A stretch of DNA of 64,000 nt, from positions 7,975,420-8,039,419 of the forward strand of contig NZ_JAFBCM010000001.1 of assembly GCF_016907715.1 (NCBI RefSeq), in the 5' to 3' direction. The first letter of the stretch is position 1, and each line of letters begins with the position of its first letter. This DNA is from Tenggerimyces flavus (GTDB lineage: Bacteria > Actinomycetota > Actinomycetes > Propionibacteriales > Actinopolymorphaceae). Below are positions 7,273 through 41,138 of this stretch, piece by piece. The translations under genes and the position numbers were made by a program. The notes beneath the pieces were generated by a model. That model saw only the letters and a program-made list of their open reading frames with translations. It was not told the origin of the DNA and did no database searches.

Positions 7273-7280
7273 AGCGCCCG

Positions 7281-7826: not shown

Positions 7827-7846
7827 GGCTACGCATCCTAGATCAC

Positions 7847-7909: not shown

Positions 7910-7935
7910 ACGAACTCCCGGTAAGGAACCGCGCC

Positions 7936-9221: not shown

Positions 9222-9246
9222 TAACGGACTGGACAGGCTTGGGGTC

Positions 9247-11010
9247 TTGGGAGACGTGGGAACGCTGACCGCTCAATCGCCCGCCACGACAGCAGAACAG
9301 CCGAAGCGAGGCAGACGCCTGCTCGCGGACCTCGCGGCGATGGGGAGCATGGTCGCGCTCGCCTTCCTCGTCTTCGCCAGGCTGTGGGTCGATCCAACCC
9401 GCCGCTACCTGATCGACGGCGCGTCGGACCAGCAGCTGTTCGAGTGGTTCTTCGCGCAGACGGCACACGCGCTCGTGCGCGGCGACGACCTGCTGTTCTC
9501 GAACTTCATCAACTTCCCGACCGGCATCAACGTGATGGCGAACACCGCGAGCTTCGGGCTCTCCATCCCGCTCGCACCAGTGACGCTGACGCTCGGCGCC
9601 TCGGTCACGTGGGCGATCGTGCTCCTCGTCGGCCTCGCGGGTACGGCGATCGGCTGGTACTGGCTGATGTCGCGCTACCTCGTCACCTCGCGGCTCGGCG
9701 CGGCGATCGGCGCCGGCCTCGCGGGCTTCGCGCCGTCGATGATCTCGCAGGCACAGGCGCACCCGCAGATGATGGTGCTGTTCCCCGTCCCGTTCATCAT
9801 CATCCAACTGATCAAGCTGTATCGCGGCCAGCGCATCGTGCTGAACGGGATCCTGCTCGGGCTGATCGTGACGTGGCAGCTGTTCATCGGCGAAGAGGCG
9901 TTGATGATCGCGGCGATCGGGATCGCGACGTTCATCGTCGCGTGGGCCGCGATGCACTGGTCGGAGTTCCGCGCCCGATTCCGTACGACCGCACTCGGCG
10001 TCGCGATCGGCGCGGCCGTCTCGCTGGTGATCTGCGCGTACCCACTGTGGTTCCAGTTCACGGGACCACAGAGCTACAGCGCCTTGCTGCACGGGCCTTC
10101 CGGCAACCCGCTCGAGTCGTTCTGGTCGTTCTCGACCGAGTCGCTGCTCGGCCACGCGGAGATCGCGCGACAGCTGTCGATGAACCGGACCGAGGAGAAC
10201 TCGTTCTTCGGCTGGCCCCTGCTGGCGTTGACGATCGCGTTGGTCGTGTGGCTGTGGAAGCGCAAGGTCGCGCGCGTCCTGATGATCGTGATCGTCGTCG
10301 CCGCGGCGCTCTCGCTAGGCCCGAGGGTCGTGCTCAACGGCGAGGCCACCTGGATGCCCGCACCGTGGATCCTGTTCCGCCATATGCCCTTGCTGGACTC
10401 GTTGTTGGAGTCGCGGCTCGCGATGATCTGCGTGCCAGCGATGGGCATCCTCATCGCGCTCGGCATCGACCGGCTGCGCAAGTCGACCGCGCCGACACGC
10501 TATCGGGTGGTCGGGTACGCGGCGATTGCCCTTGCCCTGTTGCCGATCTTCCCCACTCCCCTGCGGGCCGCCGACCGCGAGCCGCTACCGGAGTTCTTCG
10601 CCGACGGAACGTACCGCGCGTACGTCCCGGAGGGCGGCACCGTGATCCCCGTTCCGCCAACGGTGCCGGGCGATGTGGACGCGTACGACTGGCAGGTCAA
10701 GACGGGGATGGAGTTCCACATCCCCGAGGGCTACTTCGTCGGGCCGTGGGACGAGACCGGGCGCGCGTCGTACGGCGCCTACCCGCGGCCGATGTCGTGG
10801 CTGCTGCGCCGGATCCGCGACGGCGAGGGACTGACGGTCAACGAGGCGGACAAGGCGCAGGCGAAGGCCGATCTGGAGTTCTGGAAGGCGTCCGTGGTCG
10901 TGCTCGGCGACCAACCGCACCGAGACGAGCTGAAGACCGCGGTCGACGAGCTCCTTGGCGAGGAGGGCGAGCTCGTCGGCGGGCTCTACGTGTGGAAGGT
11001 CGCGCCATGA
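9247..11010 (+). CDS. Polytopic membrane protein, GT-C glycosyltransferase-like
   Basis: A 587-residue protein with roughly ten hydrophobic segments in its first 420 residues and a soluble C-terminal part. Early features resemble GT-C membrane glycosyltransferases: a first membrane helix (GSMVALAFLVFARLW), then an extracytoplasmic loop with ASDQQLFEWFFAQTAHAL and NFPTGINVMANTAS. No donor or acceptor can be named. Starts are uncertain: TTG 9247 and GTG 9256 are both in frame. Its stop overlaps the ATG of the following hydrolase gene (ATGA), so the two are translationally coupled. Confidence 0.75.
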   Translation: MGDVGTLTAQSPATTAEQPKRGRRLLADLAAMGSMVALAFLVFARLWVDPTRRYLIDGASDQQLFEWFFAQTAHALVRGDDLLFSNFINFPTGINVMANTASFGLSIPLAPVTLTLGASVTWAIVLLVGLAGTAIGWYWLMSRYLVTSRLGAAIGAGLAGFAPSMISQAQAHPQMMVLFPVPFIIIQLIKLYRGQRIVLNGILLGLIVTWQLFIGEEALMIAAIGIATFIVAWAAMHWSEFRARFRTTALGVAIGAAVSLVICAYPLWFQFTGPQSYSALLHGPSGNPLESFWSFSTESLLGHAEIARQLSMNRTEENSFFGWPLLALTIALVVWLWKRKVARVLMIVIVVAAALSLGPRVVLNGEATWMPAPWILFRHMPLLDSLLESRLAMICVPAMGILIALGIDRLRKSTAPTRYRVVGYAAIALALLPIFPTPLRAADREPLPEFFADGTYRAYVPEGGTVIPVPPTVPGDVDAYDWQVKTGMEFHIPEGYFVGPWDETGRASYGAYPRPMSWLLRRIRDGEGLTVNEADKAQAKADLEFWKASVVVLGDQPHRDELKTAVDELLGEEGELVGGLYVWKVAP

Positions 11011-11543
11011 GCGAGCGGCACGTCGTGATCGCGCCGGGCGGGCGGTACGGCCCGTCCGCGCCGCTGCTGTTCTACCCCGGCGAGGCGGCCGAACGTCGTG
11101 GCGCGGTCGTGCATCCGATCGACTGGGAGTACCCGCTCGACACCCCGGCGGACCGGCGAGTGCCGTGGGTGCACGAACGGGTCGCGCCGGTGCTCGACGA
11201 GGCCGGGCCTGGCGCGCTGGTCGTCGGCAAGTCCCTCGGCACACTGAGCGCCCCGCTCGCCGCCGACCGGGAGCTGCCGGCGGTGTGGCTGACGCCGTTG
11301 CTGACCGAGGCGCCTTGCGTGGAGGGCCTGCGGCGCGCGACCGCACCGTTCCTGCTCGTGGGCGGTACGGCGGACAAGCTGTGGGTGGGTGACCTCGCCC
11401 GCGAGCTGACGCCGTACGTACTGGAGATCGAGGGCGCCGACCACGGCATGTTCCTGCCCGGTCCGCTGAGTGAGTCGGCGGCCGTCCTCGGTCAGGTCGT
11501 GGCCGCCGTCGAGACGTTCCTCGACGACGTCGTCTGGCCTTAA
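11007..11543 (+). CDS. Small alpha/beta-hydrolase-fold protein
   Basis: A 178-residue protein with MSERHVVIAPGGRYGPSAPL at the start, a nucleophile elbow GKSLGT near residues 74-79 in place of GxSxG, and a late ADHGMF segment supplying a histidine. This fits short dienelactone-hydrolase-like alpha/beta hydrolases. Its ATG overlaps the preceding membrane-protein stop codon by 4 bp. The stop codon TAA overlaps the convergent FG-GAP gene's stop within TTAA at 11540-11543. Substrate unknown. Confidence 0.75.
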   Translation: MSERHVVIAPGGRYGPSAPLLFYPGEAAERRGAVVHPIDWEYPLDTPADRRVPWVHERVAPVLDEAGPGALVVGKSLGTLSAPLAADRELPAVWLTPLLTEAPCVEGLRRATAPFLLVGGTADKLWVGDLARELTPYVLEIEGADHGMFLPGPLSESAAVLGQVVAAVETFLDDVVWP

Positions 11544-27904: not shown

Positions 27905-30259
27905 CTAGAGCTTCTGCACCGGCGCGTACCGGAGCAGCAGCCGCTTCACGCCCTCGGAGCCGAAGTCGACCGTGGCCTCGGCGTTGTCGCCGACGCCGCG
28001 CACGGTCACCACCGAGCCCAGGCCGAACGTGTCGTGCACCACGCGGTCGCCCGGCTCCAGCGAGGGCACCGCGCCGCCGCCGGCGGTGCGGGCCGCGCGG
28101 CGTTCGGCCCGGCGGGACGAGGACGACTTCGAATGCCAGGAGGTCTGGTCGGCCTCCGTACGCCGCCACTCGATGAGGTCCTCGGGGATCTCCGGCAGGA
28201 ACCGCGACGGCGGGTTCTGCTGCGGCGCGCCCCACGAGCCACGCGAGATCGCGCGGGACACGTACAGCCGCTTCTCCGCGCGGGTGATGCCGACGTACGC
28301 GATCCGCCGCTCCTCCTCCAGCTCGGAGGGATCGTTCACCGAACGGCTGTGCGGGAAGACGCCTTCCTCCATGCCCGTAAGGAAAACGACTGGGAACTCC
28401 AGGCCCTTCGCGGTGTGCAGCGTCATCAACGTGACCACGCCGCCGTCCTCCGCGTGCTCGCCCTCCTCCTGCTCCTCGGAGTCGGGGATCTGGTCGGCGT
28501 CGGCCACCAGCGACACCTGCTCGAGGAAGTCCGACAGCAGACCCGGCGTGCCGTTCACCACCGCGGCGTCGGAGAACTCACGTGCCACCTCGATGAGCTC
28601 GCCTACGTTCTCGATCCGCGTCTTGTCCTGCGGGTCGTCGGACGCCTCGAGCTCCGCGAGGTAGCCCGTCTTCGCCATCGCCGCTTCGAGAATCTCCGCC
28701 GGCGGCACCTCGGCCTCGACCATCGCGAGCAGCTCGTCGAGCAGCGTCACGAACCCCTCGACGTTCGTCTGCGACCGGGTCGCGATGCCCGGTGCGTCGC
28801 CGGCCCTGCGCAGCGCCTGCCAGAACGTGATCCGGTCGCGCGCGGCGAGCGCCTCGATGCACGCCTCGGCGCGGTCGCCGATGCCGCGCTTGGGCACGTT
28901 CAGGATGCGCCGTAGCGAGACGGTGTCCTCGGGGTTGGACAGCAGCCGCAGGTACGCGAGCGCGTCGCGGACCTCGCGCCGCTCGTAGAAGCGCACGCCG
29001 CCGACGACCCTGTACGGCATGCCGACGCGGATGAAGATCTCCTCGAACACCCGGCTCTGCGCGTTCGTCCGGTAGAAGATCGCGACTTCCTTGGGCTTCG
29101 CTAGCTTCTCGTCGCCCAGCCGGTCGATCTCCTCCGCCACGAACTGCGCCTCGTCGTGCTCGTCGTCCGCGACGTACCCGACGATCTTGTCGCCGGCACC
29201 CGCGTCTGACCAGAGGTTCTTCGCCTTGCGGCCCTCGTTGCGGCTGATCACCGCGTTGGCGGCGGACAGGATCGTCTGGGTGGAGCGGTAGTTCTGCTCG
29301 AGCAGGATGACCTTGGCGTCCGGGAAGTCCTCCTCGAACTGGAGGATGTTGCGAATCGTCGCGCCGCGGAAGCCGTAGATCGACTGGTCCGCGTCGCCGA
29401 CCACCATCAGCTCGCCGTGCGGGACTTCCGGCGCGGTCGGGTCGACCTCGGTGAGCTCGCGGACGAGGACGTACTGCGCGTGGTTGGTGTCCTGATATTC
29501 GTCGACGAGGACGTGCGCGAACTTCTCCCGGTAGTACGTCCGGGCCTCGGGGAACGCCTGCAGCAGGTGCACGGTCGTCATGATCAGGTCGTCGAAGTCG
29601 AGCGCGCTCGACTCGCGGAGCCGCTGCTGGTAGAGCGCGTAGCACTCGGCGTACGTCTTCTCGAGGTGGTTTTGCGCGACCCGCGCGGCCTCCTCGTAGT
29701 CGACGAGCTCGTTCTTGCGGTCGGAGACCCAGTTGAGGATCGCTCTTGGGTTGTAGCGCTTGGCGTCGAGATCGAGGTCGCGGCAGACGAGGGTCATGAG
29801 GCGGCGCTGGTCGGCGGCGTCGTAGATGGAGAACGAGCTCGGGTAGCCGAACCGCTTGATCTCCCGGCGCAGGATGCGGACGCAGGCGGAGTGGAACGTG
29901 CTCACCCACATGTACGACGCGGCCTTAGGCCCGATCAGCTCGGCGACGCGTTCGCGCATCTCGCCGGCGGCCTTGTTGGTGAACGTGATCGCGAGCACCG
30001 AGCTCGGCCGGGCGTTGCGCTGGGCGAGCAGCCAGGAGATGCGCCTGGTCAGCACGCGGGTCTTGCCCGAACCCGCCCCGGCGACCACGAGCAGCGGGTG
30101 TTTCTCGTGCACGACCGCGGCTCGCTGGGCAGGATTCAGCCCCTCGAGGATCGAGTCCGGGTCGCGTCGACGCGGCGCCGGGGCAGGCCGGTCGGCGTCG
30201 TCGGCCCCCTCGACGGTGACCGCGAGGGGCAGCTGGGTTTCGGTGGGCAGCGCAGTCAT
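27905..30259 (-). CDS. pcrA: ATP-dependent DNA helicase PcrA/UvrD
   Basis: Superfamily 1A 3'-5' helicase of repair and replication restart. In the 784-residue protein from ATG 30259 the visible motifs are: Walker A VVAGAGSGKTRVLTRR; AITFTNKAAGEMRERV; STFHSACVRILRR; motif II VDEYQDTNHAQYVL; motif III VGDADQSIYGFRGA; motif IV EQNYRST; motifs V and VI including MTLHTAKGLEFPVVFLTGME and RIAYVGITRAEKRLY. The C-terminal GDRVVHDTFGLGSVVTV is the Tudor-like RNA-polymerase-binding domain of PcrA. A longer frame upstream covers the hairpin region and is discarded. Confidence 0.96.
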   Translation of the reverse strand: MTALPTETQLPLAVTVEGADDADRPAPAPRRRDPDSILEGLNPAQRAAVVHEKHPLLVVAGAGSGKTRVLTRRISWLLAQRNARPSSVLAITFTNKAAGEMRERVAELIGPKAASYMWVSTFHSACVRILRREIKRFGYPSSFSIYDAADQRRLMTLVCRDLDLDAKRYNPRAILNWVSDRKNELVDYEEAARVAQNHLEKTYAECYALYQQRLRESSALDFDDLIMTTVHLLQAFPEARTYYREKFAHVLVDEYQDTNHAQYVLVRELTEVDPTAPEVPHGELMVVGDADQSIYGFRGATIRNILQFEEDFPDAKVILLEQNYRSTQTILSAANAVISRNEGRKAKNLWSDAGAGDKIVGYVADDEHDEAQFVAEEIDRLGDEKLAKPKEVAIFYRTNAQSRVFEEIFIRVGMPYRVVGGVRFYERREVRDALAYLRLLSNPEDTVSLRRILNVPKRGIGDRAEACIEALAARDRITFWQALRRAGDAPGIATRSQTNVEGFVTLLDELLAMVEAEVPPAEILEAAMAKTGYLAELEASDDPQDKTRIENVGELIEVAREFSDAAVVNGTPGLLSDFLEQVSLVADADQIPDSEEQEEGEHAEDGGVVTLMTLHTAKGLEFPVVFLTGMEEGVFPHSRSVNDPSELEEERRIAYVGITRAEKRLYVSRAISRGSWGAPQQNPPSRFLPEIPEDLIEWRRTEADQTSWHSKSSSSRRAERRAARTAGGGAVPSLEPGDRVVHDTFGLGSVVTVRGVGDNAEATVDFGSEGVKRLLLRYAPVQKL

Positions 30260-30371
30260 CGTGCAGACCAGCCTACGGTCGAGCACCGACGAAGGCTCGG
30301 CGACTCTTCGAACGTGTGTCCAACGATCATGGAAGCTCGCGAGCGACACGTCCGCCGCCACCGCCGCTTCG

Positions 30372-30428
30372 TTTGGATGAAGGGCACCTTCATCCAAACC
30401 TATTGGATGAAGGTGCCCTTCATCCAAA
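30372..30428. repeat. AACCTAT hairpin, copy 4 (24-bp stem)
   Basis: Left arm 30375-30395 (GGATGAA, GGGCACC, TTCATCC), loop AAACCTATT (30396-30404), right arm 30405-30425 exactly complementary; TTT and AAA add three pairs. The arms are also self-palindromic (GGATGAAGG and CCTTCATCC around GCA or TGC). Core and loop match the sucD-side copies although the rest of the stem differs in sequence. Confidence 0.85.
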
Positions 30429-30459
30429 GACGTGGCGGGGGTGGGGGCGAGGTCTGGCT

Positions 30460-30510
30460 GGGTCGGGGGCACCCTGGTCCGAACCTATGGGACCGGGGTG
30501 CCCCCGACCC
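30460..30510. repeat. AACCTAT hairpin, copy 5
   Basis: Left arm 30460-30480 (GGGTCGG, GGGCACC, CTGGTCC), loop GAACCTATG (30481-30489), right arm 30490-30510 complementary except one G-U-type position. Nearly the same sequence as the copies after sucD. Confidence 0.85.
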
Positions 30511-30739: not shown

Positions 30740-31357
30740 TCAGAGGAGCTCGTCGTTCGCGTGCTCGCCGAACTCCGCCACCCGTGCCTCGGTCACCTGT
30801 TGGTAGCGCGCTACGCGGTCCTCGAAGCGGGTCGACACCCCGAACGCCGCCGAGGTGAAGCCGACGTTCCCGATCGCCGCGACCACCGCCTCGCGCTGGT
30901 CGGGGGCCATCACGCGCAGCGGGTCGCCGATCGCGACGGTGTTCGGGGGTACGAAGAACTCCGTCGGCACCACCGATCGGGCGTGCACCAACGCCCCAAC
31001 CGCCACACAGGCCCCAGCGCCCACAACAGCCCCGTGCAGCACGGTCGCGGAGGCCGCGAGGTAGGCGCAGCGCTCGATCACGCAGCCGAGCACGGTCGAG
31101 TGCGGGCCGACCAGGACATGGTCCCCCACCACCACTGGCCGCTCCTCGTCGCCGATCGCCGAGGCCCGCAGCACCGCGTGCTCGGCGATCACGCACGCCT
31201 CGCCGACCTCGACCCGCGAGCCCTCCGCGTCCAACACCGCGCCGTACATGATCCGCGCCCGCGGCCCCACCCGCACGGCTCCCACCAGCGTCGCGTTCGG
31301 CGCCACCCACGCCGACGGGTGGACCTCGGGCTCATGCCCTCGATGCTTGATGAACAT
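30740..31357 (-). CDS. Gamma-carbonic-anhydrase-like left-handed beta-helix protein
   Basis: A 205-residue hexapeptide-repeat protein. From EVHPSAWVAPNATLVGAVRV onward it has successive coils (PRARIMYGAVLDA, VIAEHAVLRAS, VVVGDHVLVGPHSTVLGCVI, VLHGAVVGAGACVAVGALVH). The histidines in AEHAVL and GPHSTVLG are candidate zinc ligands at trimer interfaces. It belongs with PaaY/CaiE-like and gamma-carbonic-anhydrase relatives, which act as carbonic anhydrases or thioesterases. ATG 31357 is preferred to a longer frame that overlaps the PAD gene. It is cotranscribed after the deiminase gene (29-bp gap). Confidence 0.85.
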   Translation of the reverse strand: MFIKHRGHEPEVHPSAWVAPNATLVGAVRVGPRARIMYGAVLDAEGSRVEVGEACVIAEHAVLRASAIGDEERPVVVGDHVLVGPHSTVLGCVIERCAYLAASATVLHGAVVGAGACVAVGALVHARSVVPTEFFVPPNTVAIGDPLRVMAPDQREAVVAAIGNVGFTSAAFGVSTRFEDRVARYQQVTEARVAEFGEHANDELL

Positions 31358-31386
31358 GAGCCCATGGTCCCCGTCGCCGCTGACAG

Positions 31387-33234
31387 TTAACGCGCGGCCC
31401 ACCAGCGGGCGATCGAACCGACGTCCCGCCAGGCGTTCGTCGTGCAGTGCACCTCGCCGCCGTTGAGGTGCGCCCAGAACGCGTCCTCGACCCAACGGAC
31501 GCGCACGCCATGAGCTCCCAGGGCACGCTCGGTCGCGACCTTGAACACATCGCGGCCGTGTACGCGCGGCCCGTGCGGGTCCGGCGGAGCGAACTCACGC
31601 GGCGTCAGCGACAGCCCGTTCGGGATGCCCGGCGTCACCGCGCGGAACACCGGCGCGAAGTCGAGCTGACGGAACGGCACGGGTACGGACACCAGGTCCG
31701 AACGTCGCAGCCCGGTCTCCGCAAGGATCCGAGCGATCTGCTTGTCGATCTGCTTCGCCGCGAGCTCGTTCTCCGCGAGGAACTTCGCATCGGCGAGCAA
31801 CGAGTCCACGGTCGGCTGGTCCGAAACGTTCGTCCCCTCGAACAACCGAGCCTTGCCAGCACCCGCGGCCTGCGCCGAACGCAGTAATCTGACCGCCTGC
31901 CGCGGGTCCGCGACCATCAGCGTCCAGCCGTGCTTGGTGCGCGCCGGGACCACGTGCATGGTCTCGTCGGCATGCCCGACCAGCAACCACGACGTGTCGA
32001 TCACCACCGGCTTCTGGTACCCCTGCGCGGCGAGCATGCCGACGAACGCGTGGTCCGGCTTCCGCACACCGGAGCCGTAGACGATCCGCCCTTGTGGGTA
32101 AGACTTTCCGGCGTGCGAGTACGGCGGCAACGACTCGATGTTCCCGCCCATGTTGAGCAGATCGTGCATCGGCTCGCGGTCCTCGTCGGTGAACTCCTGC
32201 ACGACGGCCACGTCAGGCCCGCGCAGGTCGCGGAACAGCAGCCGCCCAGCCGGGCGGAGCGTCGGCCGCACCACGCCGTCGGAGCCGGCGAGGTTCCACC
32301 GGTTCGCCGAACGGATCGCGACCCGCATCGTCCGCGGACCGCCCACAGCAGGCATCGTCGCCACAGCCGGCTCGTACGTGTCCTGCCACCAGACGTCCTT
32401 CCACCACCTCGCGGTGCCTTCGACGAAGCGCGGCGCGGGTACGCCAGCGGCCTTGGTCGCTGAGCGCAGACCGGCGGCGAACGGCTCCCACTCCCCCGGC
32501 CGGCCCTCGTCGTACTGCCAGGGAGCCTCGGCCGCGGTCGCCGGCCAACCAGCGCCAGGACCGGGCTTGCCGGCGAACACGGTCGTCGCACGCTGCAGGT
32601 CGTTCTGCAACAGCAGCGGGGCGACGCGCATCGCCACGGTGTCGCTCGCTCCGCCAGCGCCGGTCAGCGTCAGGCGTACGACACCGTCCCACTTCTCCGC
32701 GTCGCGAATGATGTCGCGCCCCTCGACCGCGAGCTCGACCCCGAACCGGAGCTGGCGAGCGGTGAACGTGCCGTCAGTGTCGTGGAATGCGCCGCCCTGC
32801 TTGACAAAAACCCGCACCTTGTCGGATCGGTCGATGCTGAGCGACGCGCCTGCCGCGAGGGGTTGGATCCGTACGGGCGCGAGGTCGGCTGCGTCCCGGC
32901 GCCCATTGACGACGGAGTCCGCGGCGTCGTTGCAGGCGGCCAATCGGCGGTCGATCGCCAGCCCGGGCTCGTCGAGATCGGAAGGCGCGACCTTGCAGCG
33001 CCGTTGGTCGTCGTCCAGGTTGGGCAGGAAGATCGCGCCGCGGTCCTTGGTCCACGTCGCCTCGCCGTTCTCGTCGTTCGGGCTGAGGAAGCCGTCCCGG
33101 TTGACGTCCGCCCGCAGGTCCGGCGCCGTATCCGCGTACGCGGGCACCACGCCAGCCACGCCGGCGATGAGCGCGAGCGACACGACTCCCCGTGTCAACC
33201 ACACCTTGCGGTGTCGTGTAGTCGTTCTGTTCAT
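31387..33234 (-). CDS. Secreted peptidylarginine deiminase (PAD family)
   Basis: A 615-residue exported enzyme predicted to convert protein arginine to citrulline. Signal peptide residues 1-34 (VVSLALIAGVAGVVPAYA), then an EF-hand-like DVNRDGFLSPND and other acidic loops suited to calcium, then the PAD catalytic domain: Asp285 in WWQDTYE, the GGNIESLPPYSHAGKSYPQG strand, His421 and Asp423 in LLVGHADET, and Cys597 in GEVHCTTN, followed by a C-terminal WW. These align in order with Asp350, His471, Asp473 and Cys645 of human PAD4. It is distinct from the Porphyromonas-type agmatine-deiminase-like enzyme. ATG 33234 is fixed by the signal peptide; the longer frame upstream is antisense to the acetyltransferase. 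Confidence 0.9.
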   Translation of the reverse strand: MNRTTTRHRKVWLTRGVVSLALIAGVAGVVPAYADTAPDLRADVNRDGFLSPNDENGEATWTKDRGAIFLPNLDDDQRRCKVAPSDLDEPGLAIDRRLAACNDAADSVVNGRRDAADLAPVRIQPLAAGASLSIDRSDKVRVFVKQGGAFHDTDGTFTARQLRFGVELAVEGRDIIRDAEKWDGVVRLTLTGAGGASDTVAMRVAPLLLQNDLQRATTVFAGKPGPGAGWPATAAEAPWQYDEGRPGEWEPFAAGLRSATKAAGVPAPRFVEGTARWWKDVWWQDTYEPAVATMPAVGGPRTMRVAIRSANRWNLAGSDGVVRPTLRPAGRLLFRDLRGPDVAVVQEFTDEDREPMHDLLNMGGNIESLPPYSHAGKSYPQGRIVYGSGVRKPDHAFVGMLAAQGYQKPVVIDTSWLLVGHADETMHVVPARTKHGWTLMVADPRQAVRLLRSAQAAGAGKARLFEGTNVSDQPTVDSLLADAKFLAENELAAKQIDKQIARILAETGLRRSDLVSVPVPFRQLDFAPVFRAVTPGIPNGLSLTPREFAPPDPHGPRVHGRDVFKVATERALGAHGVRVRWVEDAFWAHLNGGEVHCTTNAWRDVGSIARWWAAR

Positions 33235-33324: not shown

Positions 33325-34257
33325 ATGCGGCTTCGTGGGTTCCAGGTTGGCGACGGTGCGGCGATCGTCGACGCGTGGCAGCAGGCGATGCCGCGCGATC
33401 CGATCACCGCCGAACGGTTCCGCGACCTCGTGCTGCTCGACCCGAACTTCGATGCGGACGGGCTGCGGGTGGCCGAGGTCGACGGGCGCGTCGTCGGCGC
33501 GGTCGCGGCCATGCGCCGCCAGGTCGCGATGGAAGGCGGCGACCTCGAACCCGAGCACGGCTGGATCACGTTCGCTTTCGTCGACCCCGCGGTGCGCCGG
33601 CGTGGAGTCGGTTCCGGGCTGCTGTCGAACGCGTTCGACTGGCTCCGCGAGCGCGGCGCGACGCAGGTGCACTTCTCGCCGTACACGCCGAACTACCTCC
33701 TCCCCGGCCTCGACGCCACCGCCTACCCGGAAGGCCGTGCACTGCTGGAGCGCTTCGGCTTCACCACCAGGTACGAAGCCGTGGCGATGGAACGCGACCT
33801 CACCGCGTACGAGCCGCCGCACCTCGAGGCCAGGAACGGCTACGACTTCGGCACCCCCGAGACCGACGAGCTCCCCGCCCTGATCGGGCTCGCGAGACAG
33901 TTCAGCGCCGACTGGGCACGCGCGATCCGAGAGAGCCTCGCCCAGGGCAGTCCACTCGAGCGCATCGTCGTGGCGAGAGGCGCCGCCCGCGAGCTCGTCG
34001 GCTGGGCCATGCACGGGACGTACGCGAACGCGATCGAGCGCTTCGGCCCGTTCGGTGTCCACCCGAGCCAACGCGGCGCCGGACTCGGCAGGATCCTGCT
34101 GCACCGCACCCTCGCACGCATGCGCGCCGCAGGCGCCACCAAGGCCTGGTTCCTCTGGACCACCGCCGACTCACCCGCCGGCCACCTCTACACGAAGGCC
34201 GGCTTTCGGGTCACCCGAAACTTCCAGGTCATGACCGCGACGTTGACCGAAACGTGA
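33325..34257 (+). CDS. Double GNAT-domain acetyltransferase
   Basis: A 310-residue protein with two N-acetyltransferase folds. The first (about residues 1-155) contains FAFVDPAVRRRGVGSGLLSN, whose RxxGxG segment binds acetyl-CoA. The second (about 165-310) contains FGVHPSQRGAGLGRILLHRT and ends with FLWTTADSPAGHLYTKAGFR. Tandem GNAT proteins include mycothiol synthase; here the sequence does not clearly match MshD, so the substrate is unassigned. It is divergent from the deiminase gene with a 90-bp shared region. Confidence 0.88.
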   Translation: MRLRGFQVGDGAAIVDAWQQAMPRDPITAERFRDLVLLDPNFDADGLRVAEVDGRVVGAVAAMRRQVAMEGGDLEPEHGWITFAFVDPAVRRRGVGSGLLSNAFDWLRERGATQVHFSPYTPNYLLPGLDATAYPEGRALLERFGFTTRYEAVAMERDLTAYEPPHLEARNGYDFGTPETDELPALIGLARQFSADWARAIRESLAQGSPLERIVVARGAARELVGWAMHGTYANAIERFGPFGVHPSQRGAGLGRILLHRTLARMRAAGATKAWFLWTTADSPAGHLYTKAGFRVTRNFQVMTATLTET

Positions 34258-34471
34258 CTCGGCCGTTTTCGGTCAGTAATCGGTATCTCGCTCCGTAGCT
34301 GAGTTATACGTGAGCAAGCGGTTTCTCGGCATCGGTCCAGGCCGCAACGGTAATTTCTTTCCGGGGTAGCGCTTTAACGTTCCACGCCCGTAAAGTCTTC
34401 GTAACTTCCCGCCAAGGCGGGCTCGGGGGTCCCGCGTGCCAGAAACCACGGATGCGAAGGGTGCGCCACTG

Positions 34472-36616
34472 ATGGCCCAGTTGCAGGGATTGACCAGACG
34501 TTCGCTTCTCTATGGCTCGGCCGTGGCGGCCGGCGGCGCCGCTCTCGCGGCGTGTTCCAGCGGCAACGGAGGGGCCGGCTCCGGCAGCGGAACCGGCAGC
34601 AGCGGAGAGCCGTCCGCGCCGACCGGAAAGGGATCGGAGGTCAAGCCGCTGCCGAAGCCCGCGAAGTACAGCGAGGCGCCCGCTCTCGCCGAGCAGGTCA
34701 AGGCCGGCAAGCTGCCCGCCGTCGAGGAACGCCTGCCGGAAAACCCGTACGTGGTGCCGCACCGCTGGCTCGTCCCCGGCAACTACGGCGGCGTGCTGCA
34801 GATGGTGCAGGGCAAGAGCGAGTCCAGCGCGGTCAAGGAGTACATGTACGGCGGCTCGCCACTGCGCTTCCTCAACGACGGCCTCGACATCGGGCCCGGT
34901 CTGGTCGAGACCTGGGAGTCGAACGCGGATGCCTCGGAGTGGACGTTCAACTTCCGCAAGGGCCTGAAGTGGTCCGACGGCAAGCCGTGGACGACCGAGT
35001 CGATCATGTACTGGTGGGAGGACCTCGTGCAGAACGAGGACCACCCGTTCACCCCGCCGGACGACGTCCGCTCGGGCAAGAACACGGTCGCGAAGCTGAC
35101 CTGTCCCGACGACACCACGATGGTGCTCACCTTCGACGCGCCAGCCCCGATCACGCCCGAGCGGATCGCGGCCTGGGTCAACCAGTACGCGGAGACCGGC
35201 ACGCTCGGCCCGCTCTGGATGCTGCCGAAGCACTACGTGCAGCAGTTCCACCCGAAGTACAACACCGCGATCAAGGCGGGGAGCGACTGGTTCTCCAACC
35301 ACGACCTCAAGTCCGACTTCCAGCGCAACCCGGACTGCCCGACGATGACCGGCTGGCGCGGCAAGGCCTATCGCGAGGCGCAGAGCCTCACGCTCGAGCG
35401 CAACCCGTTCTACTGGGTGGTCGACAAGGACGGCAAGCAGCTTCCGTACATCGACGAGGTCAACTTCAGCGTCGTGAAGGACGAGCAGGTCCAGAAGCTC
35501 AACATGACGCAGGGCAAGTACGACTACATCCACGGCGGCCACCACCCGATCGTTTTGGGTGACGTGTCAACCTTCAAGCAGGCAGAGGCGAAGACCGGTG
35601 TGCGGCTTCGCTTCTGGGACAGCGGATCGGGCACCGGCTCGATGCTGTTCTTCAACTACGACCACCCCGACGCGAAGCTGCGCGCGCTGTTCCGCAACAA
35701 CAAGTTCCAGAAGGCGTTGTCGCACGCGGTCAACCGGGCCGAGATCCGCAAGGCGATCTACTACGACACCGGCGAGGCGACGACCGGCACGCTGAGCGTC
35801 AAGGGCGTGATCTTCAACATCAACGACGAGGGCAAGAAGCTCTACGAGGAGTGGCGCGACCTCGCCGTGAAGTACGACGTGGCGCTGGCGAAGTCGATGC
35901 TCGACGAGATCGGCGTGGTCGACAAGAACGGCGACGGCAAGCGCGAGCACCCGGACGGTTCGCCGTTGAAGATCTCGCTCGACTTCCAGGCCGACACCGG
36001 CAGCGAGAACCTGCGGAAGAACGAGTTCCTCAAGCGGGACTGGGAAGCGATCGGCCTCGACGTCCAGATGAGCCCGAGCCCGCCCGAGGCGTGGGGCGAC
36101 CGATGGAAGAACTCGGAGTTCCAGACCACGACGACGTGGGAGATCGGCGACAACCAGATCCTGGTGTACCCCGGCTGGGTGATCCCGGTCGAGCCGTCGC
36201 ACTGGGCGCCGATGCACGGGCAGGCGTTCATCCTGCAGACCGGTGACCCGAAGAAGATCGAGTCCGAGGCGAACATCGATCCCTGGAAGCGCACGCCGCG
36301 GTGGATCCTCCCGGAGGAGGGCTCGCCGATCGCGAAGCTGTACGACTTCTACGCGCAGGCACGGGTCGAGTCGGACGCGATGAAGCGCAACCAGTTGCTG
36401 TGGGAGATCGTGAAGGTCCACATCAACGAGGGCCCGTTCATGCTGGGCTTCGTGTCGAACTACCCGCGGACCGTGCTGGTGCGGGACGGGCTGAAGAATG
36501 TGCCGATGAAGGAGAACCTCGCCCTCGGCGGCTTCGTCAACCCGTGGATCCAGCCCTCGCCGGCGGTGTACGACCCGGAGGCCTACTTCTGGGAGAAGCC
36601 GGAAGAGCACGCGTAG
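34472..36616 (+). CDS. Tat-exported ABC transporter solute-binding lipoprotein, family 5 (oligopeptide type)
   Basis: A 714-residue SBP_bac_5 protein. The Tat signal LTRRSLLYGSAVAAGGAAL ends in the lipobox LAAC, giving a lipid-anchored protein. A Gly/Ser linker follows, then the substrate domain with LEVGPGLVETWESNADASEW-like N-terminal motifs, WTFNFRKGLKWSDGKPWTTE, and later FNYDHPDAKLRALFRNNKFQ and ALSHAVNRAEIRKAI. It is unusually long for the family. The start at ATG 34472 is preceded by AAGGG; GTG 34436 is an alternative. No permease or ATPase gene is adjacent. It ends before a strong bidirectional terminator. Confidence 0.92.
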   Translation: MAQLQGLTRRSLLYGSAVAAGGAALAACSSGNGGAGSGSGTGSSGEPSAPTGKGSEVKPLPKPAKYSEAPALAEQVKAGKLPAVEERLPENPYVVPHRWLVPGNYGGVLQMVQGKSESSAVKEYMYGGSPLRFLNDGLDIGPGLVETWESNADASEWTFNFRKGLKWSDGKPWTTESIMYWWEDLVQNEDHPFTPPDDVRSGKNTVAKLTCPDDTTMVLTFDAPAPITPERIAAWVNQYAETGTLGPLWMLPKHYVQQFHPKYNTAIKAGSDWFSNHDLKSDFQRNPDCPTMTGWRGKAYREAQSLTLERNPFYWVVDKDGKQLPYIDEVNFSVVKDEQVQKLNMTQGKYDYIHGGHHPIVLGDVSTFKQAEAKTGVRLRFWDSGSGTGSMLFFNYDHPDAKLRALFRNNKFQKALSHAVNRAEIRKAIYYDTGEATTGTLSVKGVIFNINDEGKKLYEEWRDLAVKYDVALAKSMLDEIGVVDKNGDGKREHPDGSPLKISLDFQADTGSENLRKNEFLKRDWEAIGLDVQMSPSPPEAWGDRWKNSEFQTTTTWEIGDNQILVYPGWVIPVEPSHWAPMHGQAFILQTGDPKKIESEANIDPWKRTPRWILPEEGSPIAKLYDFYAQARVESDAMKRNQLLWEIVKVHINEGPFMLGFVSNYPRTVLVRDGLKNVPMKENLALGGFVNPWIQPSPAVYDPEAYFWEKPEEHA

Positions 36617-36704: not shown

Positions 36705-39700
36705 CTACAGGTCCGGACGGTGCACCACGCGGATCGCGTTCACGACCGAGGGCTCGTAGCCCCGACGGTCGTGGAACCCGACCTTGAGGTTCCCGTTCGC
36801 CGGCACGTCCACCACGAACGACTTGCGGTCGGCACGCTGCCCACCGACGGCGTCCGCGATGTCGTAGTTGACCAACACGTACTGGCCGTTGACCTCCACG
36901 TCGAACGCTCGCCAGTCGACCCGCGGCGACAGCTCGAGCTCGGCGAAGTCGAGGGTGACCTCGTACCTCCCGCCCGGCAGCTTGTCGAACTGGTAAGCGT
37001 CCATGCCGATGCGCTGGTTCACGTACAGCGCGTCGTCCTCGGTCCCGCGGATGTCCGTACCAGCCGGCGCCTCGGCAGTCGTCGAAGCACCGATCCAGCC
37101 GAACGTTCCCGCCGTGTACGCCTTGTCGGCGACCCACGGGATTCCGCCGGTGTCGACACCCGCGGCACCCGCGGAGTTCACACCCTTCCAATAGCCGGAC
37201 ACGACGACCTCGACCGGCACCTTGATGACCGGCTGCCGCCCGGAGGTCGTGTGGATCTCGACGACCGCGCGGTAGACACCAGCCGCGAGCCCGGTCGTGT
37301 TGACCTTCGCGGTCACCTCGACCGAACCACCCGCCGCGACGCGTCCCTTGGCCGGCGCGAGCGTCAGCCACGGAACGTTGGTCTCCTGCGGAACGCCCGT
37401 GTCGAGCAGGTACGCGGTCTGCGTGTTCTGCGATGTCGCCCACACGTTGCCGGCCGCGTCCAGATCCGCACCCGCGAGCGCGAAGCCCTCGGGCTCGTCC
37501 AGCGAGAGGGACGAGATCGGAGCGCACGTGTCCGGGTTGTGCTGGGTGATGGTGTTGCCCTCGTCGCTGTTCGTCACCCAGAGCGTGTTGGACGCCCGGT
37601 TGTACGCCAGTCCGGCGATCCCGGAAGCCAACGGGCACTGGGAAAGCACCGCACCAGGCGTGGCATGCGACGCGCCCGCGACGTGGAACAGGACGTCCTG
37701 CACCCATCCGCCGACGTAGAACGTGTCGTCGTCGGCCTTGTACGCCAGTCCACGCTGGGCGGTCGTGCTGGCCCCACCGGCCAACGAGTAGACCTCGTTG
37801 CCGGTCGCGGGATCCCAACAGTGGATGGCGTTGTCACCGAGGACGGCGACTTGGCACATGAGGTTGCGACGCGTGTCGAACGCCATGTCGGCGTTCCACT
37901 GCGCGCTGCCGTAACCGCCCGGCCAGTCGCGCCCGGTCGCGGTGCCGTCGGGAGCGAACTCCTTGTTGCGTACCGTCTCCGGGTTCGAAACCCACACGTT
38001 CGACGTGCTCTTGCCGACACCCCACGCGACCGACAGCCCGGTCGGCCACGAGTCGAGGACGTCACCGGCGGCGAACGGCACCGCCTTCGACTTCTCGGCA
38101 GACGGGACGCTGCCAGCGGCACTGCGGGCGGCCGGGTTCTCCTTGGCCGCAAGCGCCTTCGACTGCTTGGCAGCGACGGCCGTGACCTTGGAGCCACCGA
38201 GCTCGACCGTGCTCCAGTTCATCGCGGCGCTACCGGTGTTGGAGAGCGTGAAGGTCGTCTGCTGCTTGTTGCCCTGCGGCAACACCCAGCGCAGACCCTC
38301 GGTGTCGATCTCTCCGCGACCGGTCTTGAGCACGAAGTTCTTCGCGATCCACTTGTTCGACGTGACGACGAGGTTGTTCGCCGCCGCGTTGGTGTAGTTC
38401 GGCGCCTTGACCGTTGCCTTGTAAACGCCGTTCCACAGTTGGGCGAAGTACTTGCCGTCGGCGCCGGTCGACACGGTCTGCGCCGCGCCGGTCTCCGGCG
38501 TCAGCGTCACCGCCGCGCCAGTGACGGGCAGGCCGTCGTTGGCGTCGGTGATCGTTCCGGAGACGAAGCCGTTCGGGGGCAAGGTGAACTTGACAGACTT
38601 GCTGTCGCTCAGCACACCAGAGTTGAACGAGTACTGCACCGCGACGTTGCCCGCCGAGTTCTCGACACCGACCGTGGCGGAGTCGCCTCGTTCACGGGAG
38701 TTGTTCGGGTCGAGGTTGCGGTAGTGGACGACGATGTCGCTGTTCTCGTTGATCACGATCTCGAAGTCGACGCGCGAGGTCGTGCTGCGGATCAACGCGT
38801 TCCGCCATTCGATGATGAACGAACGGTTCGGCGCGGTCCCCACGGCCTTGGTGTAGACCTTGGCGGTCGCGTCGATGACCAGGTCGTCCCAGAACGCGTA
38901 CACCGACGCGTTCGGGGCGGCCGGGGCCGGGATCGCGGTGTTGGTGAACGAGGTCGCGGGTGCCGCGAAGTTCACCAGACCGTTCGTGCTGATGTTCGCC
39001 TTCGTGTACGCCTGGCCGTACAGCACCGCCGTAAAGGGCAGGTTGACGGCCTGAACGGCGTCGTCACCAGTGAGCGCGAGACCCGTATCTGCTTGCTGGT
39101 AAGCAGGTGCGGCACTCTCACAGTGATAGCCGTACGCGTCGACGCGGTCCGCGAGCCGGAAGTTGACGATCTTCCGGGCGTTGACCACGACGTCCTTGGA
39201 GGCGTCGGCGCTGCAGCCACCCGGCGAGGTGACCGAGATGTTGTACGTGCCGACGGGCACCTGCGCGAACTCGTACACACCGTCGGCGTCGGTCGTCGCC
39301 GGAGCCAGCGGAGTGCCGTTCACCTTGACGACCGCGCCCGCGACAGGGTCGCCGCGCGAGTCGGAGACCTCGCCGAGGACCGGCCACGAGCCGACCGGGG
39401 TGAGCGCGAAGTCCTTCGTCACCGTGGCATCGGTCGCCACCGTGGCGGTTCCGGTCGCCGTTCCGTACGCGTACGCCGAGACCTCGAGGTTGTAGTCGCC
39501 GGTCGAGAGCTTCGCCGTGTACGTGCCGGTCGCGGTCGTGGTGAGCGTGCGCGAGCTGGCACCGGTGATCTTGACCTGGGCGCCGGAGATCGGCGCGCCG
39601 GTCGTGGCGTTGGTGACCGTACCGGTCAACGTGCCCGACTCGCCTCGCGGCGACGCGGTCACGGCGGCCAGGGCGTCGAGCTTGCCCTCACCCCACACGT

Positions 39701-41138
39701 TGTTGTTGGTCGGCGTTCCGCCACAGGTGGTGTCGTCGGTGTCGATCGCGGTCTGGTTCAGCAGCGTCCGCGTGGTGGCGATGTCGCCGACGAGGGCGGG
39801 AGCCGCGGACCACATCAGCGCGACCGTGCCCGCCACGTGCGGTGCGGCCATCGACGTTCCGGTGAAGTTCGCGTACGAGTTGTCCGGAATCGACGAACGG
39901 ACGCTCACCGCGGGGGCGGAGATGTTCGGCCGGATCTCGCCGTTGGCGCCAGGGCCACGGCTGGAGTTGTTGTAGACGGCACCGTTCGACTGGAAACCGC
40001 CCACGCCGTAGGCGAGTGCGGAGTCCGCCGGCGAACCCGCCGTGTCACAACCCGGTCCGGCGTTGCCGTTGGAGAAGACACCGAAGATGCCGGAGGAGGT
40101 CCAGCCGGAGATGATGTCGTCGTACCAGGGGTCCTCTTCGGGACCGTTCGGCGCGCCCCAGGAGTTGTTGACGATGTTCGGGCGCAGGTCGGTACGCGGG
40201 TTCTGGTTCTGCAGGTCGGTGGGCGCGAGCACCCACTGGCCCGAGGTCAGCAGCGCGTTCTCCGAGCAGCCGAGCGGGGAGTCGCAGCCGACGGCCGAGA
40301 CCCACTTGGCGCCGGGTGCGACACCGATCTGGTTCGCGCCACCGTCGTCGCCGACCATCGTGCCCATGGTGTGGCTGCCGTGGTCGTCGGGGTCGCACGG
40401 CGCGAGCGACGGGTTGCCGCACACGCGGGACGGGTCGAACCAGTTGTAGTTGTGGTCGAACGTTCCGCCGCCCTGGTTGCCGCGGTACTTCCCGACCAGC
40501 GCGGGGTGGGTGTACTGCACACCCGAGTCGATGTTGGCGACCGTGATGCCCTCACCCCGGACGCCGTACGTGCCCCAGACCTGGTCTGCCTTGATCGCGG
40601 CGATGCCCCACTCGACGGCGGTCGGCGCCGACGCGGCGGCCGGCTCCGGCTTGATCAGGTCGGCCGTCTGGCTGGCCGCGACGCGCTCGACTCCGGGCAG
40701 CGCGGCGAGCTTGTTCGTCTGCGCCGCCGTGGAGCTCCGTACCAGGATCCGGTTGGAGATCCAGAACGGAGTGAAGTCGGCCTTGGCCTTGGTCAGCTCT
40801 GCTCGCGCCTCGGCCTGGCTCGCGTTCGCGGTGTCCTGCAGCGCCTTCACGACGGCGTCGCCGCGCGCGGTCCAGTCCTTGATCTTCGAGGCGGCGTCGA
40901 GGTCCGCCTTGTCCTTGAAGACCAGGTAGATGTCCGTCGAGCCCTTCGCGTCGAGCGCCTTCTCGACGCTCGGTGCGATCGGTGCGGACTGCGGGTCGTC
41001 GGCCTTGCCGTCGTTCCCCGCCGCTACGGCGCCGGTGGGCGCGAGGAGGCCGCCGATGACGGCCATCGACGCGATGGCCACCGCCGCGAACGTCCGTTTG
41101 AAGGCAGCGCGTCCGCCGCCTGGGTCTAGTCGAGCCAC
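36705..41138 (-). CDS. Very large secreted multidomain S8 serine protease (subtilase)
   Basis: A 1477-residue exported protease. A signal peptide (TFAAVAIASMAVIGGLLAPT) is followed by a propeptide-like inhibitor region (about 50-165) and the peptidase with Asp204 in VANIDSGVQYTHPA, His253 in DPDDHGSHTMGTM and Ser429 in FTGTSMAAPHVAGTV. Downstream are three carboxypeptidase-regulatory-like beta domains (TGTVTNATTGAPISG, LGEVSDSRGDPVAG, SGTITDANDGLPVTG), a propeller-like region of about 1070-1300 (FDTRRNLMCQVAVL, GLAYNRASNTLWVTN), and a C-terminal malectin-like domain (about 1310-1477). GTG 41138 has GGAGGGG upstream. A receiverless winged-helix regulator is divergent. Confidence 0.92.
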   Translation of the reverse strand: MARLDPGGGRAAFKRTFAAVAIASMAVIGGLLAPTGAVAAGNDGKADDPQSAPIAPSVEKALDAKGSTDIYLVFKDKADLDAASKIKDWTARGDAVVKALQDTANASQAEARAELTKAKADFTPFWISNRILVRSSTAAQTNKLAALPGVERVAASQTADLIKPEPAAASAPTAVEWGIAAIKADQVWGTYGVRGEGITVANIDSGVQYTHPALVGKYRGNQGGGTFDHNYNWFDPSRVCGNPSLAPCDPDDHGSHTMGTMVGDDGGANQIGVAPGAKWVSAVGCDSPLGCSENALLTSGQWVLAPTDLQNQNPRTDLRPNIVNNSWGAPNGPEEDPWYDDIISGWTSSGIFGVFSNGNAGPGCDTAGSPADSALAYGVGGFQSNGAVYNNSSRGPGANGEIRPNISAPAVSVRSSIPDNSYANFTGTSMAAPHVAGTVALMWSAAPALVGDIATTRTLLNQTAIDTDDTTCGGTPTNNNVWGEGKLDALAAVTASPRGESGTLTGTVTNATTGAPISGAQVKITGASSRTLTTTATGTYTAKLSTGDYNLEVSAYAYGTATGTATVATDATVTKDFALTPVGSWPVLGEVSDSRGDPVAGAVVKVNGTPLAPATTDADGVYEFAQVPVGTYNISVTSPGGCSADASKDVVVNARKIVNFRLADRVDAYGYHCESAAPAYQQADTGLALTGDDAVQAVNLPFTAVLYGQAYTKANISTNGLVNFAAPATSFTNTAIPAPAAPNASVYAFWDDLVIDATAKVYTKAVGTAPNRSFIIEWRNALIRSTTSRVDFEIVINENSDIVVHYRNLDPNNSRERGDSATVGVENSAGNVAVQYSFNSGVLSDSKSVKFTLPPNGFVSGTITDANDGLPVTGAAVTLTPETGAAQTVSTGADGKYFAQLWNGVYKATVKAPNYTNAAANNLVVTSNKWIAKNFVLKTGRGEIDTEGLRWVLPQGNKQQTTFTLSNTGSAAMNWSTVELGGSKVTAVAAKQSKALAAKENPAARSAAGSVPSAEKSKAVPFAAGDVLDSWPTGLSVAWGVGKSTSNVWVSNPETVRNKEFAPDGTATGRDWPGGYGSAQWNADMAFDTRRNLMCQVAVLGDNAIHCWDPATGNEVYSLAGGASTTAQRGLAYKADDDTFYVGGWVQDVLFHVAGASHATPGAVLSQCPLASGIAGLAYNRASNTLWVTNSDEGNTITQHNPDTCAPISSLSLDEPEGFALAGADLDAAGNVWATSQNTQTAYLLDTGVPQETNVPWLTLAPAKGRVAAGGSVEVTAKVNTTGLAAGVYRAVVEIHTTSGRQPVIKVPVEVVVSGYWKGVNSAGAAGVDTGGIPWVADKAYTAGTFGWIGASTTAEAPAGTDIRGTEDDALYVNQRIGMDAYQFDKLPGGRYEVTLDFAELELSPRVDWRAFDVEVNGQYVLVNYDIADAVGGQRADRKSFVVDVPANGNLKVGFHDRRGYEPSVVNAIRVVHRPDL

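Follow-up and report, generated by a model that had tools for sequence, protein, structure and literature searches.

The locus described here raises the question of what a protein-arginine deiminase (PAD) would do outside the cell of an actinomycete. That actinomycetes carry the PAD family is already known, with 136 actinobacterial species described by Cummings et al. (PMC8826395). An earlier note on this DNA, a 64,000-nucleotide stretch of the Tenggerimyces flavus genome (hereinafter the window), had called such extracellular citrullination novel biology. The claim needs tempering, because both the enzyme class and citrullination by a PAD in vivo are known from actinobacteria (PMC8826395, PMC9266682), but it retains some force in that a 2022 review describes bacterial and fungal PADI enzymes as catalytically active yet of completely unknown function (PMC9174705).

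The gene that the earlier note placed at 31387..33234 (minus strand) is confirmed. Its open reading frame runs from an ATG at 33234 to a stop codon at 31387-31389, included in these coordinates, and encodes 615 residues. There is no other ATG upstream in the open frame; the remaining in-frame starts are GTG or TTG codons at 33558 and beyond, inside a divergent GNAT gene. The GC content is 0.70, compared with 0.69 for the whole window, and the GC3 of 0.87 is slightly under the 0.89-0.93 of five other in-frame genes. The evidence presented below leads us to regard the product, with considerable confidence, as a calcium-dependent protein-arginine deiminase that is exported and belongs to the two-domain kind of bacteria.

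Family, fold and active site

The window protein belongs to the PAD family and has the PAD fold. Residues 197-612 (31399..32646, minus strand) form the catalytic PAD_C domain, which matches the PF03068 profile with an E-value of 3.6e-71 (bit score 240.7, cut-off 25) over profile positions 4-394 of 395, and a single-sequence phmmer comparison matches human PAD4 with an E-value of 1.2e-36. No other PF03068 match exists in the 8.5-Mb genome, and the same search of 14 control genomes gave zero matches. Among the matches listed, the solved structures found by sequence are PAD1-4 and PAD6, with no other amidinotransferases; the listed PDB rows hold only PADs or chains of cytoplasmic lattices that contain PAD6, and no Pfam match of the PPAD or agmatine deiminase kind appears at E-values up to 1, though a missing entry in such lists is not proof of separateness.

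An AlphaFold model built on 92 sequences (pLDDT 95.5, pTM 0.94) matches residues 113-662 of human PAD4 with a Z score of 50.0 and an rmsd of 2.0 Å over 499 residues, and Foldseek pairs the two with an E-value of 1.2e-46; identity over the structural alignment is 28-29%. Within this global fold match the catalytic residues were paired by sequence alignment. A model made earlier from 12 sequences (pLDDT 61.9), with poor active-site surroundings, was set aside. The mature chain starts where PAD4 has residue 113 and PAD_N is absent, while residues from about 36 to 195 (32650..33129, minus strand) make up a middle, PAD_M-like domain, recognized by the likeness of its fold to that of PAD4, which sets in at this residue. 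Pfam yields no PAD_M match in the window protein, and the sequence alignments of this domain to PAD4 are not significant alone (i-Evalues 1.6e3 and 2.3e2); the middle domain of two-domain PADIs is described as missed by Pfam (PMC8826395). The suggestion that the other N-terminal domains of animal PADs are lacking is thus correct for PAD_N but not for the middle domain, which is present by fold.

As had been proposed from the sequence, the four PAD4 catalytic residues occur in order. They align as Asp285 (PAD4 Asp350; 32380..32382), His421 (PAD4 His471; 31972..31974), Asp423 (PAD4 Asp473; 31966..31968) and the catalytic nucleophile Cys597 (PAD4 Cys645; 31444..31446), all on the minus strand, and the motifs WWQD, GHADE and GGEVHC and a C-terminal WW match the PAD4 surroundings. 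The quartet is complete in 91 of the 92 aligned bacterial rows, the only exception being L042, in which a frame break leaves the cysteine position empty. Equivalents of PAD4 W347 and R374 are found in 91 and 87 of the 92 rows, respectively; that of R639 is not kept and is N591 in the window protein. By analogy with PAD4, the window protein would be expected to perform deimination: Asp285 and Asp423 would hold an arginine side chain of a peptide or protein, Cys597 would attack its guanidinium carbon and His421 would serve as acid/base, so that ammonia would leave and citrulline remain.

The 92 rows comprise 107 loci and the window's own copy (L001) minus 16, namely fragments and split or truncated genes (L011 and L015-L023, of which L019 and L021-L023 all come from a single divergent PAD within an 863-residue frame of G017), a broken copy (L061), a tandem pair (L064), a truncated gene (L079) and rows identical to others (L029, L031, L060); loci L109-L137 are not part of the set. 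The genome scan confirmed 497 relatives and kept the best 80, so that the sample leans towards sequences near the query, and group labels come from the first tree.

Calcium-type motifs, cysteine pair and predicted export signal

The acidic calcium-type loops that had been claimed for the protein were found. An EF-hand-like loop, D43-x-N45-x-D47-G48...D54 (33073..33108, minus strand), aligns at the calcium-6 site, and the D43 position is a gap in 20 of the 92 rows, 17 of them from the window protein's own subclade. The middle domain contains an acidic ligand cluster (N72, D74, D76, D103, D106, D114 and D117; 32884..33021, minus strand), each member of which is found in 86 to 92 of the 92 rows. 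The spacing of this cluster is the same as in PAD4, given the PAD4 ligand numbers that we assume for the comparison; the equivalent of PAD4 E170 is V108 and is not kept. Calcium-1 ligands Q349, E353 and E411 have equivalents in 88, 87 and 85 of the 92 rows, respectively. The calcium-2 ligands of animal PADs, which we take to be E351, D369 and N373 in PAD4 numbering, are not kept and correspond to T286, R308 and L326. The D388 position is aspartate in 71, glycine in 19 and asparagine in two of the 92 rows.

Compared with human PAD4 and the other three-domain animal PADs, the window protein shares the fold over residues 113-662, the catalytic residues and part of the calcium ligands, but lacks PAD_N, is changed at the calcium-2 ligands, E170 and R639, and carries a signal peptide and an extra cysteine pair. 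PAD_N and the calcium-2 ligands are described as marks of the animal/cyanobacterial PADI clade, and the two-domain PADI type (Cummings et al. 2021) as keeping calcium 1 and 3, likely keeping 5 and 6, and having lost 2 and 4 (PMC8826395). The window protein resembles these two-domain PADIs of actinobacteria, proteobacteria and fungi in its middle domain and PAD_C without PAD_N, in its catalytic quartet, and in retaining calcium-1 but not calcium-2 ligands. The earlier reading thus stands in that the protein is a PAD homologue whose quartet is full and which has calcium-type motifs and an export signal, but the label "animal PAD type" fits only in part, as PAD_N and the calcium-2 ligands are missing.

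The cysteines of the mature protein are C80, C101 and C597 only. Cys80 (32995..32997) and Cys101 (32932..32934), both on the minus strand and both present in 90 of the 92 rows, probably form a disulfide. Residues 1-35 (33130..33234, minus strand) constitute a Sec-type signal peptide that is plain by inspection (RHRK..GVVSLALIAGVAGVVPAYA), as the earlier note had it, and is picked up by a heuristic scan, with predicted cleavage after AYA. Under a home-made rule, in which PAD frames had more scanning room than control genes, signal-peptide-like starts are found in 80 of 92 bacterial PADs versus 121 of 494 control genes, and a lipobox in 14 of the 17 rows from Myxococcota versus 20 of the same 494 control genes. 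This rule was corrected and partly loosened after a first version (63/91; lipobox in 11/17 Myxococcota), whose limit on the scanned stretch was faulty and which had no control set. The high share of export signals among bacterial PADs is less expected; the literature listings and passages searched, including a term look-up in PMC8826395, contained no mention of export of two-domain PADs.

The window PAD is therefore predicted to be exported: its signal peptide, in line with the family-wide pattern, would take the chain out of the cell, where, to judge from conservation, the fold may be held by the C80-C101 disulfide and by calcium ions, some bound within the middle domain and some next to the active site. 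Extracellular arginine-rich peptides or proteins would then lose charge. The PPAD of Porphyromonas gingivalis, which is not known to depend on calcium, is likewise bacterial. It is a secreted protein-citrullinating enzyme (PMC6212822), described as phyletically distinct from PADIs (PMC8826395) and as an extended agmatine deiminase (PMC9174705).

Subclade, distribution and gene neighbourhood

In the tree, the window protein is one of 36 rows that form a supported subclade (hereinafter the K clade). The triple-histidine block between the domains is found in none of these 36 rows, compared with 21 of 25 rows of the main Streptomyces (S) type, and the window protein has QND in its place. The block is given for the actinobacterial/fungal PADI type, with six sequences compared per group (PMC8826395), so its absence marks a subclade and does not exclude the window protein from the two-domain type. 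The K clade further differs from that type by loop insertions beside the active site and at the calcium-switch aspartate, which is reported to be glycine in actinobacterial and fungal sequences (PMC8826395), contrary to which the D388 equivalent is kept in 27 of the 36 K-clade rows; the discrepancy may stem from the alignment or from the few sequences compared in that paper.

In a tree with PAD4 as the sole animal row and with no fungal or cyanobacterial sequences, the window PAD groups with actinobacterial rows, weakly (89/82 and 88/94) with Pseudonocardiaceae and Nonomuraea and not with Kribbella, a genus of its own order; horizontal transfer is only suggested. Besides its own genome, the gene is present in 10 of 56 relatives, including none of seven from the same family, and in three of 395 others of a phylum sample. 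No PAD match was found in 50,697 phage records, and none of 19 pattern hits in viral contigs was confirmed. Four of 72,556 plasmid records have a PAD match, and the three of these that were inspected are linear (0.58, 0.85 and 5.7 Mb); the size of the last would suit a chromosome.

Split, truncated or fragmentary PADs occur in four of the 11 matching genomes in the relatives' scan (G009, G014, G033, G050) and broken copies in four of 49 genomes of a second set (G462, G551, G574, G733), with further ones at L042 and L061. Such remains would fit a decaying or inactive PAD, but the window copy has its full length and every catalytic residue, and dN/dS is 0.14-0.23 (NG86) in seven hand-chosen close K-clade pairs, none of which includes the window gene; we consider decay very improbable. 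The broken copies, together with the patchy presence (10/56, 0/7, 3/395), speak instead for an accessory trait and against a role in shielding the cell's own secreted or surface proteins from trypsin-like proteases through removal of arginine sites, or in altering its own surface during development.

Near the window PAD lie genes for a family-5 solute-binding protein (34436-36613) and for a subtilase with a malectin domain (36708-41138), the latter 3.5 kb away. In 81 sources, the window and 80 loci, 797 genes were predicted; clustering them by BLAST gave 111 non-PAD clusters and no widely shared PAD neighbour. Gene prediction was crude, however, and overlooked some genes, including the GNAT neighbour, so that failure to find a partner gene is not proof of its absence. 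Fifteen of the 111 clusters are represented within 3 kb of a PAD under at least two genus labels, none of them in more than three such loci. Some of the pairings involve doubtful labels (L036 'Rhodococcus' with L055 Kibdelosporangium; L059 'Streptosporangium' with L047 Streptomyces). Among the recurrent neighbours, the closest is a gene that matches no Pfam family and immediately precedes the PAD in both L037 and L055; two clusters flank the PAD in nine loci each, exclusively in Kribbella, and clusters containing other window genes lie at least 13.5 kb from the window PAD.

The nearby subtilase gene and the export signals across most of the family (by the home-made rule) would suit the self-protective role; no gene near the window PAD was found to recur near other PADs, however, and with the patchy distribution we judge it rather unlikely. 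The PAD reaction releases ammonia, and an exported enzyme close to a solute-binding protein gene could scavenge nitrogen from extracellular peptidyl arginine. Against this, no neighbour of any kind is widely shared near PADs and the substrate-holding residues of protein deiminases are retained, which makes scavenging a distinctly improbable role.

Possible targets and role outside the cell

Of the 33 genomes whose PADs belong to the K clade or are K-like, 24 contain a match to Transglut_core3, a family that is not exclusive to lasso proteases. Such a match would accord with a tailoring enzyme that deiminates one arginine of a particular secreted RiPP of the same cell, as does the Streptomyces PAD that citrullinates citrulassin lasso peptides, citrulassin D among them, in vivo and is encoded apart from the peptide cluster (PMC9266682, PMC8498205, PMC12971885). 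The citrulassin PAD (WP_064069847.1; Harris et al. 2020, known through later papers) and the window PAD are both actinobacterial stand-alone genes. In vivo peptidyl-arginine deimination is, however, a property of the citrulassin PAD, whose substrate is a lasso peptide, whereas the single marker used for lasso proteases (PF13471) has no match in the window's own genome, where a standard lasso peptide is thus not seen; eight other genomes of the 33 likewise have no match. The citrulassin PAD probably belongs to the S type and not the K clade, since PAD-positive S. aureocirculatus (PMC12971885) has an S-type gene here (L078), in another strain. Amycolatopsis xylanica is listed with a citrulassin-like core and a PAD (PMC12971885), and its genome, under another strain name, holds two PADs, one of them in the K clade (L038) and neither with an S-type score. 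Given also the lack of a widely shared neighbour near PADs, dedicated RiPP tailoring appears unlikely for the window PAD.

The most likely targets, to which we give about an even chance, are foreign or own secreted peptides more generally, so that the exported deiminase would blunt cationic antimicrobial peptides or toxins, or tailor secreted peptides.

We tentatively extend this reading, with more doubt than confidence, to the family: bacterial two-domain PADs may form a system for citrullination outside the cell, which actinomycetes would release and Myxococcota would tether as lipoproteins. The enzymes would be disulfide-bonded and activated by extracellular calcium, and would act on neighbours' arginine-rich peptides and proteins as well as on own secreted peptides. 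The K clade would then be one specialised branch. Citrulassins would be citrullinated after export, as finished lassos, a matter of timing that two reviews leave open (PMC9266682, PMC8498205). Should export and disulfide bonding hold for the majority of two-domain PADs, as suggested by the rows studied here, the question of their role moves outside the cell. Animal PADs have a very high calcium demand, and family-wide export offers a possible reason for it: their calcium dependence would be left over from enzymes that formerly acted in the extracellular space.

PAD4 fold, domain make-up and active site

The PAD gene lies on the minus strand as one open frame of 615 codons plus stop (31387-33234; ATG at 33234). 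PF03068 (PAD) covers residues 197-612 of its product (E 3.6e-71) as the single Pfam family at E up to 1, no NCBIfam profile matches the protein, and the 8,519,422-base Tenggerimyces flavus genome holds no other PF03068 match. Two sequence searches against solved structures, with 27 distinct sequences apiece, found PADs throughout: PAD4, PAD1, PAD2, PAD3 and PAD6.

Structure prediction, which the earlier note had proposed as a check, returned the PAD4 fold. The model, built from an alignment of 92 bacterial PAD rows, has a mean pLDDT of 95.5 and a pTM of 0.94. Human PAD4 complexes are its top PDB matches (Foldseek E 1.2e-46), and each of the 50 rows displayed per comparison is either a PAD structure or a chain from a mouse cytoplasmic lattice, an assembly containing PAD6 (12dl chain AC is PAD6 by sequence search). 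VIA-align matches 499 residues to PAD4 (Z 50.0, rmsd 2.0 Å). Because model residues 1-580 align to PAD4 113-662, the mature protein is, as modelled, a middle domain followed by a catalytic domain, with PAD_N alone absent. The earlier suggestion that the other N-terminal domains of animal PADs are missing thus holds for PAD_N and fails for the middle domain, which is present by fold.

An alignment with the PAD4 catalytic fragment and alignment A2 of the 92 bacterial rows place D285, H421, D423 and C597 at PAD4 D350, H471, D473 and C645, as the earlier note had read them. All four residues occur together in 91 of 92 rows; in the remaining row, L042, the frame is broken. W282 (PAD4 W347) is kept in 91 rows and R327 (R374) in 87, while PAD4 R639 is replaced by N591. 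Of the calcium-1 ligands, Q284 is kept in 88 of 92 rows, E288 in 87 and E367 in 85; T286, R308 and L326 stand at the calcium-2 places, so those ligands are not kept in this protein.

The acidic calcium-type loops noted before were also found. In the middle domain, N72, D74, D76, D103, D106, D114 and D117 are each kept in 86 to 92 of the 92 rows, with the spacing of PAD4 N153, D155, D157, D165, D168, D176 and D179; E170 is not kept, V108 standing in its place. Middle-domain sequence alignments to PAD4 are not significant alone and are backed by the fold match. An EF-hand-like loop (D43-x-N-x-D-G-x5-D54) occupies the calcium-6 place by sequence. Twenty of the 92 rows have a gap at D43, and 17 of these fall among the 36 rows of the clade containing the window protein (K clade), so not all of these PADs share the calcium-6 site. 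Cummings et al. 2021 (PMC8826395) describe the two-domain PAD type as keeping calcium sites 1 and 3, likely keeping 5 and 6, and losing 2 and 4. At the published calcium-switch position (D341; PAD4 D388), 71 of the 92 bacterial rows have aspartate; the same source gives this position as glycine in actinobacterial and fungal PADs.

Relatives and published PADs

In the species-genome scan, 497 of the 581 pattern matches listed encode a relative, and the best 80 of these 497, which were kept, include Kribbella, Streptomyces, Pseudonocardiaceae, Nonomuraea, Actinomadura and Myxococcota. A tree of 93 rows including PAD4 places the window PAD inside the K clade (support 96/92). Its closest neighbours there are Amycolatopsis, Actinosynnema, Actinophytocola and Kibdelosporangium and not Kribbella, although the inner branches concerned are weak (89/82, 88/94). 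The type to which most Streptomyces PADs belong (S; 25 rows, support 99/90) stands apart. Against PF03068, scores of intact K-clade rows run from about 181 to 242 bits versus 390-411 for the four S rows with placeable scores (L024, L073, L084 and L096). Several genomes, e.g. S. lasiicapitis and Kibdelosporangium aridum, carry both types. Two genus labels look doubtful: 'Rhodococcus rhodnii' for L036, a 12.4 Mb genome whose nearby genes are common to Kibdelosporangium aridum, and 'Streptosporangium' for L059, a row inside Streptomyces in the tree.

PADs have been divided (PMC8826395) into a three-domain type of animals and late-branching cyanobacteria and a two-domain type of fungi, actinobacteria and other bacteria. 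By domain make-up and the lost calcium-2 site, the window protein is of the two-domain kind, not of the animal type to which it had been assigned. It adds a member to this known kind, and its subclade differs in one published marker: the triple-histidine block described for actinobacterial and fungal PADs (PMC8826395) occurs in 21 of 25 S rows but in none of the 36 K-clade rows. PADs of bacteria, actinobacteria included, are not new, since the literature already reports PADs from 136 actinobacterial species (PMC8826395) and citrulassin lasso peptides citrullinated in vivo by a PAD that Streptomyces encodes outside the peptide's cluster (PMC9266682, PMC8498205, PMC12971885). Citrulassin-like tailoring is unlikely as the task of the window PAD, because a profile search of its own genome gave no match to the lasso-protease family PF13471; among 33 genomes carrying a K-clade or K-like PAD, the 24 with such a match decide nothing on role.

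Distribution, apparent gain and loss, and neighbourhood

PADs are patchily distributed: 11 of 57 genomes and 2 of 11 genera in a sample of relatives, and 4 of 396 genomes phylum-wide (own genome counted in both), with none found in seven other genomes of the T. flavus family. In the genus of genome G184, 49 of 295 genomes have PADs; the position of the G184 PAD (L024) among Streptomyces rows is the ground for taking this genus as Streptomyces. Copies that are split, truncated, stop-bearing or fragmentary (L016/L020, L015/L079, L017, L011/L018, L042 and L061; genomes G462, G551, G574 and G733) point to rapid gain and loss; four of those 11 PAD-positive genomes and four of those 49 have such copies. 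In seven closely related K-clade pairs, selected by us, dN/dS is 0.14-0.23 by NG86 and 0.04-0.15 by YN00.

No gene within 3 kb of the PAD is common to more than three loci across genus labels, and none of five window neighbours reads as an operon with it: a UvrD helicase (27908-30472), a hexapeptide-repeat protein (ORF 30743-31495, probably with an internal true start), a divergent GNAT protein (33325-34254) that has two acetyltransferase stretches, a solute-binding protein of family 5 (34436-36613) and, 3.5 kb away on the minus strand, a large subtilase (36708-41138) carrying a malectin domain and three carboxypeptidase-regulatory stretches. The picture is of a stand-alone gene, readily gained and lost, under selection.

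Individual loci show further arrangements. L037 (Actinosynnema) and L055 (Kibdelosporangium) each have, immediately upstream of the PAD and on the same strand, a gene without a Pfam family (7131-7823 and 7198-7836, respectively); these two loci are the sole members of its cluster. Pseudonocardiaceae bacterium YIM PH 21723 (L064; genome G744, four PAD matches) has tandem PAD genes (7910-9646 and 9655-11391). Genome G017 carries, beside two ordinary PADs, a divergent PAD over one 863-residue open frame with insertions (L019, L021-L023). L139 (5932-10000) places a PAD among two-component system genes, with transposases near, on a mobilizable Streptomyces linear plasmid.

Probable export and proposed role

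The protein begins with a clear Sec-type signal by sequence, MNRTTTRHRKVWLTR-GVVSLALIAGVAGVVPAYA-DT, in agreement with the earlier claim of a signal peptide. Under a home-made rule (start codon, positive n-region and 12-residue hydrophobic core), which was corrected and, in part, relaxed following an initial run (63/91; lipobox in 11 of 17 Myxococcota rows) and which scanned PAD frames with more room than control genes, signal-like starts occur in 80 of 92 PADs versus 121 of 494 controls (other genes of at least 250 aa in the same loci). By group the counts are K 34/36, S 19/25, Myxococcota 14/17 and, in the further groups of the set, K2 4/4, Acm 4/5, f24 4/4 and L058 1/1. By the same rule, the signal is followed by a lipobox in Myxococcota (14 of 17 rows), K (2 of 36) and Acm (2 of 5), versus 20 of 494 controls. 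Besides the catalytic C597, the mature window protein has just two cysteines, a C80/C101 pair shared by 90 of 92 rows; in 78 rows the aligned part contains three cysteines and no more. The natural reading is that the pair would form a disulfide, which would fit export as a second hint beside the signal-like starts.

Sec would most likely export the enzyme, calcium and the disulfide would hold its fold outside the cell, and it would convert arginine in extracellular peptides or proteins to citrulline by hydrolysis of the side chain. We favour, as a guess, foreign or own secreted arginine-rich peptides as substrate, because the one relative with an in vivo substrate in the papers cited here acts on a secreted peptide and because PADs are patchy and often lost. 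Patchiness with frequent loss is typical of competition traits.

A 2022 review calls the functions of bacterial and fungal PADs completely unknown (PMC9174705), and the main text of Cummings et al. (PMC8826395) has no mention of 'signal peptide' or 'secret-'. What most deserves following up is the export pattern of the family as a whole. Across the bacterial rows compared, it suggests, speculatively, a reason for the high calcium need of PADs; it predicts that citrulassins are citrullinated after export, and it makes bacterial PAD function testable outside the cell.
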